This document shows positions 16,409 through 39,140 of a stretch of 64,000 nt of DNA, piece after piece. How positions within the stretch are numbered: the stretch's first letter is position 1; each line of letters begins with the position of its first letter. Below the pieces are notes generated by a model that was not told the origin of the DNA, searched no databases, and worked only from the letters and a program-made list of their open reading frames with translations. The DNA is from an uncultured Pelagibacteraceae bacterium (lineage in GTDB: Bacteria; Pseudomonadota; Alphaproteobacteria; Pelagibacterales; Pelagibacteraceae), in NCBI GenBank assembly GCA_902524945.1, contig CABZFF010000004.1:22410-86409 (forward strand), in the 5' to 3' direction. The translations under genes and the position numbers were made by a program.

Positions 16409-17404
16409 TTATAAATATTTACTGATCAATTTTTCAAACAAACTTATTTGATCGGAATTGTCATTTAAACATGGAATTAAATCGAAATTTTTTCCCCCAT
16501 TTTCAAGAAAACTTTCTCTGCCTTGAATGTTAATTTCTTCTAAGGTTTCAACGCAGTCAGATGCAAAACCAGGACATATTACTAATAAATTTTTTACCCC
16601 TTCTTTCGGCAAAGTTTCTAAAGTTTTATCTGTATATGGAGTTAACCATTCTTGTGGCCCAAAACGAGATTGGAATGTTGTCCTTATTTCAATTTCATTG
16701 TATTTTTCTTTCATTAACCTTGTGGTCTTATGACAATAACAATGATATGGATCTCCTTTATCAAAGTAAGATTTAGGTATACCATGATAAGAAGAGACTA
16801 TTAGATCGGGTTTCCAATTAATTTCTTTAACTTTCTTTTTAATGCTATTAATTAAAGCGCTAATATAAAAGTGATTGCTTTCATAATGTGGAATTATTTG
16901 TAAACTAGGTTGCCATCTCATTCTCATCAAAGATCTATAAACTTCATCACAAACTGTGGCTGTTGTAGCAGCTGCATATTGTGGATATAGAGGTAGAATT
17001 ATAATATTTTCACATCCTGCTTCTTTTAATTTAATTAATTTAGATTTAATGCTGGGGTTGCCGTATCTCATGGCAAAATCAACAATTGTTTTTTCATTTC
17101 CAACTTTTTTATTAAGTTTAGAGGCTTGATTTTTAGTAAAATATAGTAAAGGTGACTCATTACTTTCTTTCCTCCAAATTTGCTTGTATGCGTGAGCTGT
17201 TTTTGATGGTCTAAAAGTTAAAATAAATACATTTAATATAATTTGCCAAATAATTGGGTTTATCTCTATTACTCTTCTATCTGAGAGAAACTCTTTTAGA
17301 TATCTCCTAATATCAAGCCAACTAGTAGAATCTGGTGTGCCTAAGTTAACTATTAGAACTCCAGTTTTACCAAACTTTACTTCTGGGTGGTCTTTATTCG
17401 TCAT
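16409..17404 (-). CDS. hemH: ferrochelatase
   Basis: A 331-residue enzyme inserting ferrous iron into protoporphyrin IX. Signature segments are 'TGVLIVNLGTPDS' at the N-terminus, 'LPLYPQYAAATTATV', 'SYHGIPKSY' with the catalytic His, and 'PGFASDCVETLEEI' with the conserved Glu. A 'YHCYCHKTTRL' segment follows. The start overlaps the hemE stop by 4 bases, and its stop lies one base from hemJ, so hemE-hemH-hemJ form a coupled terminal heme operon. Confidence 0.97.
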   Translation of the reverse strand: MTNKDHPEVKFGKTGVLIVNLGTPDSTSWLDIRRYLKEFLSDRRVIEINPIIWQIILNVFILTFRPSKTAHAYKQIWRKESNESPLLYFTKNQASKLNKKVGNEKTIVDFAMRYGNPSIKSKLIKLKEAGCENIIILPLYPQYAAATTATVCDEVYRSLMRMRWQPSLQIIPHYESNHFYISALINSIKKKVKEINWKPDLIVSSYHGIPKSYFDKGDPYHCYCHKTTRLMKEKYNEIEIRTTFQSRFGPQEWLTPYTDKTLETLPKEGVKNLLVICPGFASDCVETLEEINIQGRESFLENGGKNFDLIPCLNDNSDQISLFEKLISKYL

Positions 17405-18411
17405 TCATCAAAATTCCTATAAAATTTTATTAACTTCATTACTTTATCAGGATCTGTTTCAGGAAGTAACCCGTGTCCTAAATTAAAGATATAAGGTACA
17501 TTTTTAAAAGCCTTAATATATTTTGTCGCTCCCTCTATCATTTCTTTATCATTTTTTAAAAGAACTTGTGGTGCCAAGCCACCTTGTAAAACTACATTTT
17601 TTAAATTATTTTTTGCCCATGTTGGGTCTACTTCGGGGTCTAGACTTATGCCATCTGGTTTTACAAAATTATTAAATTCTTCATATTTTTGCTTGATGCC
17701 TTTTGGGAAACAGATGTTTGGTATTTTATTTTTTTTACAAAAATTGATAATTTCTAGATTAGGTAAATAGCAATATTCTTTTATTTTATTTTCGGGTATT
17801 AAACCTGCCCAGGAATCAAATACTTGAACAACATCAGCTCCTGCATTTATTTGATTATTTATATGAATACATAAGTATTTTATTAATTCTTTAATTACTA
17901 AATCTAAGTTTAATTTTTTATCTTCTAACTTATTTACGTCTAAATCTTTTTTATTTTTTTTGAGGTTTAAGATGTAAACTAAAATTGTCCATGGAGCACC
18001 AATAAAAGAAATTAATGTCTTTTTTTTATCTAATTTTTTCCTTGTTATATTTATAGCCTTGTAAACTGGTTCAAGCTTCTTAGAAAATATTTTTTCATTA
18101 TTGTCTAGGAACATGTCAACATTAAACTTGCTTAATTCAGGGCCTAAGTCTTTTGAAAATTTTACATCCTGCCCTAGAGCGTAAGGAACCATTAAGATGT
18201 CTGAAAAAATTATTGCAGAATCTAGGTCGAATCTTTCAATTGGTTGGAGGGTGATCTTAGAGCTTAATTCACTATTTAAGCAAAGATTTATAAAATCAGG
18301 ATTCTTATTTCTTAAGTTTCTAAATTCTGGTAAATATCTACCTGCTTGTCTCATAAACCACACAGATTTACAACTTTTTTTTTTTATTAATATTTCTTTA
18401 AGATTGCTCAT
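17401..18411 (-). CDS. hemE: uroporphyrinogen decarboxylase
   Basis: A 336-residue TIM-barrel enzyme converting uroporphyrinogen III to coproporphyrinogen III. It has the signature 'VWFMRQAGRYLPEFR' near residue 20 with the substrate-binding Arg residues, 'IIFSDILMVPYALG', and 'FNLGHGLLPETDPD' at the C-terminus. It is the first gene of the leftward hemE-hemH-hemJ(-rho) group and borders the hemE-ppsR gap that marks oriC in several alphaproteobacteria. Confidence 0.97.
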   Translation of the reverse strand: MSNLKEILIKKKSCKSVWFMRQAGRYLPEFRNLRNKNPDFINLCLNSELSSKITLQPIERFDLDSAIIFSDILMVPYALGQDVKFSKDLGPELSKFNVDMFLDNNEKIFSKKLEPVYKAINITRKKLDKKKTLISFIGAPWTILVYILNLKKNKKDLDVNKLEDKKLNLDLVIKELIKYLCIHINNQINAGADVVQVFDSWAGLIPENKIKEYCYLPNLEIINFCKKNKIPNICFPKGIKQKYEEFNNFVKPDGISLDPEVDPTWAKNNLKNVVLQGGLAPQVLLKNDKEMIEGATKYIKAFKNVPYIFNLGHGLLPETDPDKVMKLIKFYRNFDE

Positions 18412-18684
18412 AAAATAAAATAGGTTTTAGAATCCTTTTTGAGGTACTATGTGCTGTTAAATACTCATATAACTTTTAATACATATTTTATACATATTCT
18501 AGTTAATAACTTTTTTAATAAATATTTCTATTTACTGACTTTATTAATCTTATAAACATTAGTAAAACAACAATATTAACATCGTATAAAATGTTAAAAT
18601 ATTGTTAATTAATGTTAGTTTTTTTGTCAGTTTCTTTACAAGAAGTGGAAAAACTTAGTTTATTATTTATTTATTAACAAAAAT
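18412..18684. other. oriC: candidate chromosomal replication origin (oriC), hemE-ppsR intergenic region
   Basis: The longest non-coding gap in the window (273 bases) lies between divergent hemE and ppsR, the place of oriC in Caulobacter and Rickettsia. By my count the 120 bases 18481-18600 hold only 18 G or C. Near matches to the DnaA box TTATNCACA, each one mismatch off, are TTATACATA (18488-18496), TTATAAACA (18550-18558) and TTATTAACA (18671-18679). TTAA-N7-TTAA, the CtrA pattern, occurs at 18594-18608 but could be chance in such AT-rich DNA. Promoters for hemE and ppsR must also be here. Confidence 0.6.
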
Positions 18685-19503
18685 ATGAACCAAAAATACA
18701 ATGTATATCTTGTGTCTGACTCTACGGGCGAAACTCTAGATAGAATATTTTTGTCACTTAAATCTCAATTTTCAAATTTTGAGTATGAAAAAAAAGAGTA
18801 TGCTTTTGTGAGAACAGAGCAACAAATTGATAGAATTATAAGTGAGTGTATTAACTTAGAAAATTCTTTAATACTATATACTATTGTAGAAACAAAACTT
18901 GCAAAATATATTTCTAAACAAAGTGAAAAAAATAATCTACCATGTTTCGGAATACTAGGTAATCTTATTTTAAGTTTTTCTAAACTTTTAAACCAGAAAG
19001 CAATACATAAACCAAGCGCGCAACATGTATTAGATGATGATTATTATAAAAGAATTGAAGCTATTCAATTTACCATGGCGCATGATGATGGAAAAAAAGT
19101 AGATGACATAAAAAATGCCGATATTGTTTTGTTAGGTGTAAGTAGAACCAGTAAAACTCCTACCTCAATTTATTTAGCTAATAGAGGATATAAAACAGTA
19201 AATATTCCTTTAGTATTAGATCAAAAAATTCCTGAAGATTTGGTTAATGACGAAAAAATTTGTGTAATAGGATTAATAGCAGATCCTGTTAGACTAGCGG
19301 ACATTAGAAGAAATAGAGTAGCTATTATGAAAGATCGTAAATTAAAAGAATATACTGATATTGATCATATTAGAGAAGAGGTAGAAGGTTCCAAAAATCT
19401 TTTTAAAAAAAATAATTGGCCATCAATAGATGTTACCCGAAGATCTGTCGAGGAGACAGCTGCATCTATTTTAAAGATCATAGAAATTAAAAGAAATAAA
19501 TGA
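18685..19503 (+). CDS. ppsR: pyruvate,phosphate/water dikinase regulatory protein (DUF299 kinase-pyrophosphorylase)
   Basis: A 272-residue protein of the PDRP/PpsR family, which phosphorylates and dephosphorylates pyruvate,phosphate dikinase or PEP synthase on the regulatory threonine. The start 'YLVSDSTGETLDRI' and the nucleotide loop 'LLGVSRTSKTPTSIYLA' near residue 150 are typical. It is first in a tightly overlapping ppsR-maf-aroE-coaE-dnaQ run (4-base ATGA overlaps) leading away from the hemE-side gap, exactly as in other alphaproteobacteria next to oriC. Whether the target is PPDK or PpsA cannot be told from the window. Confidence 0.92.
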   Translation: MNQKYNVYLVSDSTGETLDRIFLSLKSQFSNFEYEKKEYAFVRTEQQIDRIISECINLENSLILYTIVETKLAKYISKQSEKNNLPCFGILGNLILSFSKLLNQKAIHKPSAQHVLDDDYYKRIEAIQFTMAHDDGKKVDDIKNADIVLLGVSRTSKTPTSIYLANRGYKTVNIPLVLDQKIPEDLVNDEKICVIGLIADPVRLADIRRNRVAIMKDRKLKEYTDIDHIREEVEGSKNLFKKNNWPSIDVTRRSVEETAASILKIIEIKRNK

Positions 19504-36877: not shown

Positions 36878-37491
36878 TGCAGCAGCTTGAAGTCATAAAT
36901 ATTCTAAAAAAGAGTCTTAATTTTAGCGATTATTCAATTGAGAAGCTTAAAAGGTTCACAAATTTAGTTTTAAAAGAAAATAAAAATTATAATTTAATTG
37001 CTAAAAGCACAGAAAATCAAATTTGGTTTAGGCACATACTTGATTCAGCTCAATTAGTTAAGTTTATTGATTTTAAGCCTAGATCATTAGCTGATCTAGG
37101 CACAGGAGCAGGTTTTCCAGGTCTCGTTGTAGAAATATTCAATAATAATAAGGCTTTTCACGTGAAATTATATGAAAAATCACCTGTAAAAAGAAGGTTC
37201 TTAATGTATGTAATTAAAGAACTGAGTTTAAATGCAGAGGTTTTAGGGGATGTCAGAGACGAACTGATTGATTCCGAGATAATAATATGCAGAGCTTTTA
37301 AAAAATTGGATCAAATAATACAAGTTTCACGTGAAATTGCTAAAAAGCCCCATAAACTTATGATTCTGAAAGGTCAAAATGCACAGAAAGAAATAAAAAA
37401 TTCTTTCAAAACAAAAAAATACCCTTATAAATTAAAAACTAGCATGACAAATAAAGATTCAAAAATAATTATAATGGAGATTGATAAGTAA
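36874..37491 (+). CDS. rsmG: 16S rRNA (guanine-N7)-methyltransferase RsmG (GidB)
   Basis: A 205-residue SAM-dependent methyltransferase for G527 of 16S rRNA. '[27 protein letters not shown]' and the SAM loop '[17 protein letters not shown]' are diagnostic. It overlaps mnmG by 4 bases and abuts parA with no spacer. The coding sequence hosts two copies of the palindrome TTTCACGTGAAA read in different frames, which look like parS sites for ParB encoded just downstream. Confidence 0.96.
37154..37169. promoter_or_regulatory. parS: parS-like ParB-binding site 1 (inside rsmG)
   Basis: Contains the perfect 12-base palindrome TTTCACGTGAAA (37156-37167), the core of the bacterial parS consensus TGTTTCACGTGAAACA; 12 of 16 positions match. 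It is read in rsmG as Phe-His-Val-Lys. parA starts about 320 bases downstream. Confidence 0.82.
37323..37338. promoter_or_regulatory. parS: parS-like ParB-binding site 2 (inside rsmG)
   Basis: A second TTTCACGTGAAA palindrome (37325-37336), matching the 16-base parS consensus at 13 positions and lying 169 bases from the first. Here it is read in a different codon frame (Val-Ser-Arg-Glu), so the repeated DNA string is not explained by a repeated peptide. Confidence 0.85.
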
Positions 37492-38289
37492 ATGTCATCA
37501 CCAACAATATTAGCGATCATAAATCAAAAAGGCGGTGTAGGAAAAACAACTACAGTAATAAACTTAGCTGCGTCACTGTCCATTATGGGTCGAAACAATC
37601 TGGTAATTGACTTAGATCCACAAGGCAATGCAACAACTGGGTTAGGTAAGAATAATAATGATGAAGATAAAAATGTTTACAATCTTTTAATAAAAAAAAT
37701 TGACATAGAAAATACAATTCAGAAAACAGATATAAAAAATCTAGATTTAATAGGTTCACACGTAAATCTTTCTGGTCTCGAAGTTGAGACAGCCAATGAT
37801 TCAAATAGAGCATTTGTTTTAAAAGAAATTCTAAATTTGAAAAAAAACAGCGCATTAAAAAAATATGATAATATTTTTATAGACTGTCCCCCGTCCTTGA
37901 GCTTACTAACTATAATGGCATTGGTTGCTTCAGATGAATTGTTGGTGCCACTTCAAACAGAATTTTTTGCATTAGAAGGTATTACTCAACTTGTAAAAAC
38001 TATAGACCGCATTAAAGAAAATCTTAATCCTAGTCTTAAGATCAGAGGTATCTTGCTAACAATGTTTGACAAAAGAAATAAACTTTCTTCTGAGGTTGAT
38101 AGAGAAGCTAGAAACTATTTCAAAGAAAAAGTGTATCAAACTGTTATTCAAAGAAACGTTCGTTTATCCGAGGCGCCTTCACACGGATTACCTTGCGTAG
38201 TATATGACAAAAATTGTGTTGGAAGTAAATCTTATTTCAAATTAGCCGAAGAATTTTTAAAAAAAAATCAAATTGAAAGTGCCGCATGA
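37492..38289 (+). CDS. parA: chromosome partitioning ATPase ParA
   Basis: A 265-residue Walker-type partition ATPase. The deviant P-loop 'INQKGGVGKTTTVINLA' is at residues ~10-26, with 'NLVIDLDPQGNATTGLG' (A') and 'YDNIFIDCPPSLSLLT' (Walker B) following. It drives segregation of ParB-parS complexes. It follows rsmG with no spacer, overlaps parB by 4 bases, and lies next to two parS-like sites, so a full chromosomal Par system is present. Confidence 0.97.
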   Translation: MSSPTILAIINQKGGVGKTTTVINLAASLSIMGRNNLVIDLDPQGNATTGLGKNNNDEDKNVYNLLIKKIDIENTIQKTDIKNLDLIGSHVNLSGLEVETANDSNRAFVLKEILNLKKNSALKKYDNIFIDCPPSLSLLTIMALVASDELLVPLQTEFFALEGITQLVKTIDRIKENLNPSLKIRGILLTMFDKRNKLSSEVDREARNYFKEKVYQTVIQRNVRLSEAPSHGLPCVVYDKNCVGSKSYFKLAEEFLKKNQIESAA

Positions 38290-39140
38290 GTCCAGGAAAA
38301 AAGAAAGGTCTAGGTAGGGGATTGTCCGCATTATTTGGAGACACTACTCCTGAAGAAAAAAAACCTCTAACTAATCAATATAATACAGCGGCAATTTCTG
38401 ATTTATCTCGAAATCCATATCAACCAAGACAAAGTTTTAAAGAGGAAAAACTTGAGGAATTAACTAATTCTATAAGGAAAAATGGCATTATTCAGCCAAT
38501 AGCAGTAAGACCCAGCAAGTCAGATTCCAACAAATATGAAATAGTAGCAGGGGAAAGAAGATGGCTAGCAGCTCAAAGGGCAGGATTGCACGAAATCCCA
38601 ATTACAATATTAGATTTATCTGATGTTGAGTCTCTAGAAGTTGCAATTGTTGAGAATATTCAGAGAGATGATCTTAATCCGATTGAAGAAGCAAAAGGAT
38701 ACAAAAGATTGAATGAGGAATTTGAATATGACCACGAAAGTATTTCAAAATTGATGTCTAAAAGCAGAAGTCATATTAGCAACACATTAAGATTACTTTC
38801 ATTACCTTCAGATGTAATTGCAATGTTAGAGGAAGGCACATTGTCTTCTGGTCAAGCAAGACCATTAATCGGGATTTCTAATGCTTCTTCTATTGCTGAA
38901 GAAATAGTTTCAAAAAATTACAGCGCAAGGAAAGTTGAGTATTTAACTCGAAACAAAAAGAGTAATCTAAAAGAAAAAACTGTTGATGCTAATATTCTTA
39001 AAACACAAGAAAGAATCGAAAAAATATTAGGGTTAAAGGTTAATATTATTAACAAAAAAAATAATTCAGGTAAGGTAACTATTCAATATAAAGATTTAGA
39101 TCAGTTCGAGTTAATATCAAGTCTTCTGACTAAGCATTAG
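38286..39140 (+). CDS. parB: chromosome partitioning protein ParB
   Basis: A 284-residue CTPase and parS-binding protein. The N-terminal 'KKGLGRGLSALFGD' is the ParA-stimulating region. 'NPYQPRQSFKEEKLEELTNSIRKNGIIQPIAVRP' and 'YEIVAGERRWLAAQRAG' (the CTP-binding GERR-W box) come next, then the helix-turn-helix 'HESISKLMSKSRSHISNTLRLLSLP', and a C-terminal dimer domain. It overlaps parA by 4 bases and convergent holA by 11. Confidence 0.97.
   Translation: MSPGKKKGLGRGLSALFGDTTPEEKKPLTNQYNTAAISDLSRNPYQPRQSFKEEKLEELTNSIRKNGIIQPIAVRPSKSDSNKYEIVAGERRWLAAQRAGLHEIPITILDLSDVESLEVAIVENIQRDDLNPIEEAKGYKRLNEEFEYDHESISKLMSKSRSHISNTLRLLSLPSDVIAMLEEGTLSSGQARPLIGISNASSIAEEIVSKNYSARKVEYLTRNKKSNLKEKTVDANILKTQERIEKILGLKVNIINKKNNSGKVTIQYKDLDQFELISSLLTKH

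Follow-up and report, generated by a model that had tools for sequence, protein, structure and literature searches.

The window analysed here is a 64-kb stretch (contig positions 22410-86409) of a draft genome of 30 contigs and 1.01 Mb from an uncultured bacterium of the Pelagibacteraceae (SAR11), a family in which several closed genomes exist. Within it, an intergenic gap separates hemE from ppsR, and the genes point away from the gap on both sides, as a sequence-only reading of the window had noted: rho-hemJ-hemH-hemE lie to the left and ppsR-maf-aroE-coaE-dnaQ-secB to the right. The ppsR product is 81-88% identical to its counterparts in uncultured Pelagibacteraceae single-cell genomes. The features to which we refer below are the following.

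17401-18411, minus strand: hemE, uroporphyrinogen decarboxylase (TIGR01464), left boundary gene, with its start at 18411
18412-18684, no strand: candidate oriC, the hemE-ppsR intergenic region, 273 bp, 17.9% GC
18437-18454, plus strand: DnaA-trio-like stretch with a G/C-containing spacer, 5' of the hemE-side box, resembling the architecture of PMC8287927 (genus consensus TAATAGGTCC; window copy TACTATGTGC, weak)
18455-18463, minus strand: putative hemE-side DnaA box TATTTAACA, at an orthologous position, with more than two mismatches in the window copy
18475-18496, plus strand: tandem repeats of TTWATACATA that vary little within the genus
18550-18558, plus strand: DnaA-box-like site TTATAAACA, matrix score 10.6
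18573-18581, plus strand: DnaA-box-like site ATATTAACA, matrix score 8.4
18592-18600, minus strand: weak DnaA-box-like site ATTTTAACA with genus-wide conservation, matrix score 3.8
18603-18611, minus strand: DnaA-box-like site TAATTAACA, matrix score 8.5, its columns being 94% identical on average among the 50 sequences aligned
18671-18679, plus strand: putative ppsR-side DnaA box TTATTAACA, matrix score 11.4
18685-19503, plus strand: ppsR, COG1806/DUF299 kinase-pyrophosphorylase (NF003742, PF03618), right boundary gene
37155-37168: second parS-like copy, one mismatch
37324-37337, plus strand: parS-like palindrome GTTTCACGTGAAAT, inside gidB
37492-38289, plus strand: parA, downstream of gidA and gidB
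38286-39140, plus strand: parB, downstream of gidA and gidB

As the earlier reading stated, the gap is the longest internal non-coding stretch of the window, also when genes with GTG and TTG starts are included in the count. It is clearly richer in A and T than the window as a whole (29.9% GC), in line with what characterizes an oriC of the hemE-ppsR type. The same reading had described a core of 18 G/C in 120 bases. A low-GC core is indeed present, with 17 rather than 18 G/C at 18457-18576, but it is not distinctive, and we rejected it as evidence for an origin because nine other places in the window hold 14-17 G/C per 120 bases. An Rfam search matched tRNA alone. Concerning the flanks, hemE and ppsR are the boundary genes of the alphaproteobacterial oriC type: the Caulobacter origin has been mapped, and the Rickettsia origin predicted, at the hemE/COG1806 boundary (PMC1914354). 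The proposal that the gap lies where these two bacteria have their origin was therefore borne out, with hemE on the minus strand and ppsR, a member of the COG1806 family, on the plus strand.

We also compared the gap across SAR11. Its length varies between 263 and 284 bp in 50 genus-level sequences and between 258 and 286 bp in all the SAR11 genomes of other genera that were measured. The alignment revealed an ordered array of conserved blocks, in which the mean column identity is 88% for the box-like sites versus 67% for the spacers, a comparison that leans toward the boxes as their columns were partly picked by eye. Mean conservation over the whole gap (71%) is unexceptional when set against other intergenic regions.

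Searching the gap of the window for TTATCCACA, the strict E. coli form of the box, gave no site at 0 or 1 mismatch, which confirms the earlier statement that a perfect DnaA box is absent. Against TTWTNCACA, one mismatch being allowed, the gap contains five sites, two of them overlapping, where 0.92 would be expected from the window average; one-mismatch sites had thus been correctly recognized, although three had been counted. Results from other SAR11 genomes showed what occupies the two outer positions elsewhere. At the hemE-side position, on the minus strand, TTATCCACA is found exactly in one sister genome and TTATTCACA, TTATCAACA or TTATTAACA in others, and at the ppsR-side position other SAR11 genomes carry TTTTCCACA, TTATACACA, CTATCCACA or TTATCAACA where the window has TTATTAACA. 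Therefore, at two orthologous positions, the canonical boxes TTATCCACA, TTATTCACA, TTTTCCACA and TTATACACA of sister genera face TTATTAACA-type sites in the genus of the window. Judging from this comparison of sequences, the hemE-side and ppsR-side sites appear to be the same ones across genera, progressively departing from the canonical DnaA box, with loss of C at positions 5 and 6 as the main change. The textbook DnaA-box motif is gone, the sites having shifted toward A and T.

A scoring matrix was built solely from the boxes of other genera at the hemE-side and ppsR-side positions and scanned over five large contigs of the genus, about 1.4 Mb in total (G000, G060, G062, G068 and G015). The gap contains 4-8 matrix sites, compared with 0.65-1.2 expected at thresholds 5 and 6, the two stricter ones, corresponding to a 4- to 10-fold enrichment. 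In G000, G068, G062 and G015 it is, at most settings, the top or tied-top cluster of sites per 273 bp, while in G060 it is not top-ranked. Judged against the lineage's own box, as given by the matrix from other genera, the gap is richer in DnaA boxes than the rest of the genome.

The genome encodes DnaA, the initiator, and the DNA-contacting residues of its domain IV are unchanged (sequence match to 1J1V). Across the order, RPRQ and RDHTTV/I are kept in 29 of 30 DnaA proteins, the 29 being those in which the motif was parsed. As the contacts are unchanged, it is the sites that appear to have drifted and not the initiator. The sequence-only reading had left open whether recognition was relaxed or the sites had diverged; these results favour divergence.

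Bacterial parS sites are typically origin-proximal. In the window, the parS-like sites lie about 18.6 kb from the gap, beside parA and parB, in agreement with the earlier placement of parABS at about 19 kb. Each of the 12 genomes examined has essentially one parS locus (GTTTCACGTGAAAY), always at 7-20 kb from ppsR, so that the proximity to parS expected of a bacterial oriC holds beyond the window. Both palindromes of the window are located within the coding sequence of gidB and not in intergenic DNA.

Gene polarity was scanned in two complete genomes (G128 and G124), each sampled at about 30%. In G128, which is closed, the leading-strand coding fraction reaches its maximum of 0.668 at 605 kb, the best of 276 trial origins, and the hemE-ppsR position is 604.8 kb; in G124, hemE-ppsR falls in the top 4% for the same quantity. 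The leading-strand gene bias expected around an origin is therefore found on the complete genomes and approximately on contigs of the genus, where, in 4 of 5 draft contigs, gene strand switches best at a distance of 16-28 kb from the gap.

The sequence-only reading had also proposed a GC-skew check, which speaks neither way. Raw cumulative GC-skew minima on contigs of the genus lie away from the gap, and raw cumulative skew was set aside as an origin marker as it is dominated by gene orientation. Strand-corrected skew, computed at third-position and at fourfold sites, does flip at the gap, with its sign inverted. In pooled data of the genus, the fourfold-site GC skew changes from +0.064 +/- 0.013 to -0.050 +/- 0.009, the reverse of the G excess normally seen on the leading strand. 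Intergenic skew shows no flip and is flat in the genus, and is weakly canonical in G124. We infer that the coding signal stems from the codons preferred by expressed genes on the leading strand and not from replication mutation bias, and the corrected flip was not counted as proof of an origin, considering that the intergenic control suggests codon usage. GC skew is uninformative in the SAR11 clade. On the five large contigs scanned with the matrix, strand-corrected TA skew at fourfold sites flips at hemE-ppsR as GC skew does, with a sign opposite to leading-strand G and T excess.

The proposal of an oriC candidate is hence supported by the position and gene order of the gap, its conserved array, the orthologous boxes of sister genera, the rank of its site cluster, the proximity of parS and gene polarity, all of which are direct observations, and we conclude that the hemE-ppsR gap is very probably the chromosomal oriC of this SAR11 bacterium. 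As hemE and ppsR diverge, both of their promoters must sit in the gap, and its tandem TATAAC/TTATACAT blocks are promoter-like; one could accordingly see there a mere divergent regulatory region with repeated transcription-factor sites, the origin being elsewhere. We consider this improbable: canonical DnaA boxes occur at the orthologous positions of sister genomes, the cluster comes out top in the scan of about 1.4 Mb, the gene order matches known alphaproteobacterial origins, and a promoter function would leave both the proximity of parS and gene polarity unexplained. The TTWATACATA repeats at 18475-18496 are possibly weak DnaA sites or promoter elements. The two copies, about 10-11 bp apart, rank among the most conserved columns of the gap and fit a DnaA box poorly; they might be promoter elements or sites of another protein.

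An origin situated nearby, as in many bacteria, would be at dnaA, which is 60-85 kb from ppsR in the compared genomes that have both on one contig, or in the gidA/gidB-parAB-parS cluster, 7-20 kb away. SAR11 whole-genome alignments customarily begin at DnaA (PMC12421898). In addition, gidA and parAB are neighbours of the origin in many phyla, and the strand-switch optima on contigs of the genus are displaced by the 16-28 kb given above. However, dnaA and dnaN are nearly contiguous with few bases between them, and the 273 bp upstream of dnaA contain 0-4 box-like sites versus a mean of 7 in the hemE-ppsR gap (these counts concern cleanly parsed loci, about a third of the loci being excluded together with L308, an artefact near a record end). 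Moreover, the leading-strand bias of G128 peaks within 5 kb of hemE-ppsR, and we regard a neighbouring origin as very unlikely. The inverted strand-corrected skew, positive to negative across the gap for fourfold GC and TA in pooled contigs of the genus, would by itself suggest that hemE-ppsR is near a terminus-like switch. This is hardly credible, given that the genes diverge and do not converge, parS is adjacent, an array of DnaA boxes is present and intergenic skew does not flip, so that the coding signal probably comes from codon choice in leading-strand genes with high expression. A search for E. coli-like dif gave only matches with 2-3 mismatches at no consistent place, providing no terminus anchor.

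Returning to the gap as oriC, DnaA binding, the unwinding site and firing are what we infer from the above observations. DnaA would occupy the ordered array of about seven degenerate TTATNAACA-type boxes on both strands, and its filament may nucleate from the hemE-proximal box and extend. AT-rich DNA would then melt at the hemE end, the hemE-side box being adjoined there by TAG-type DnaA-trio-like triplets, followed by helicase loading and the bidirectional departure of forks, while parS, 18.6 kb off, would segregate the new origins. The basal unwinding system, known from Bacillus subtilis and predicted widely, consists of a DnaA box, a short G/C-containing spacer and DnaA-trios (PMC8287927); to qualify as such a system, a box should have three or more DnaA-trios no farther than 16 bp away. 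Its likeness here is that 5'-TAG-type triplets at the hemE end are found 5' of the box complement across a short spacer, where 3'-GAT-5' trios would be expected. Trio scores exceed those of shuffled sequences modestly, with 3.70 versus 2.72 in the genus and 5.03 versus 3.16 in other SAR11. In contrast to the basal system, the window copy has only two clear triplets, a weak match and a modest signal, and unwinding at this place is a prediction.

Concerning known origins, the gap resembles Cori of Caulobacter crescentus in its boundary genes and their orientation, in being AT-rich with several DnaA sites and in having parAB nearby, but differs in that the SAR11 boxes have drifted to TTATNAACA types. 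The predicted oriC of Rickettsia prowazekii shares the hemE-COG1806 boundary genes and an AT-rich small genome. Rickettsia origins were, however, assigned using CtrA and IHF sites as criteria, and in SAR11 CtrA control is not expected. CtrA sites (TTAA-N7-TTAA) and CtrA control are present in Caulobacter and are variable or absent in other members of the hemE-ppsR type. In the genome that we searched, CtrA gave no family match above the cut-off and ctrA is reported absent from Pelagibacter (PMC2877005), which makes CtrA control unlikely; the CtrA brake of Caulobacter Cori is probably absent in SAR11. In kind the SAR11 oriC, although well supported, is ordinary, its drifted DnaA boxes being its one unusual feature. 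More tentatively, and with the odds somewhat against it, replication in SAR11, and above all in this genus, may start from a minimal alphaproteobacterial origin, a compact one of about 270 bp that consists nearly entirely of low-affinity boxes (TTATNAACA instead of TTATNCACA) and works with an unaltered DnaA and no CtrA. If true, the timing of initiation would depend on the level of DnaA alone.

In the second family of the order (f2, G073-G086), no ppsR match was present among the members listed; if these genomes have their origin at hemE, a different gene must adjoin it on the right.

Metagenomic read coverage of SAR11 is reported to be V-shaped, with a single origin, whose locus is unnamed in the relevant passages of that report (PMC9589681), and the origin of HTCC1062 is stated to have been identified manually, its place not being given in the corresponding excerpt (PMC4033161). 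Among the papers searched, none was found that names hemE-ppsR as the SAR11 origin; databases such as DoriC may contain a prediction of this kind. One growth-rate tool sets dnaA fragments at the origin (PMC7852909). A fixed origin coordinate would allow metagenomic growth estimates to be anchored correctly, as dnaA, used by some, is 60-85 kb off. Moreover, with the initiator constant, SAR11 genomes form a natural gradient from canonical DnaA boxes to drifted ones.
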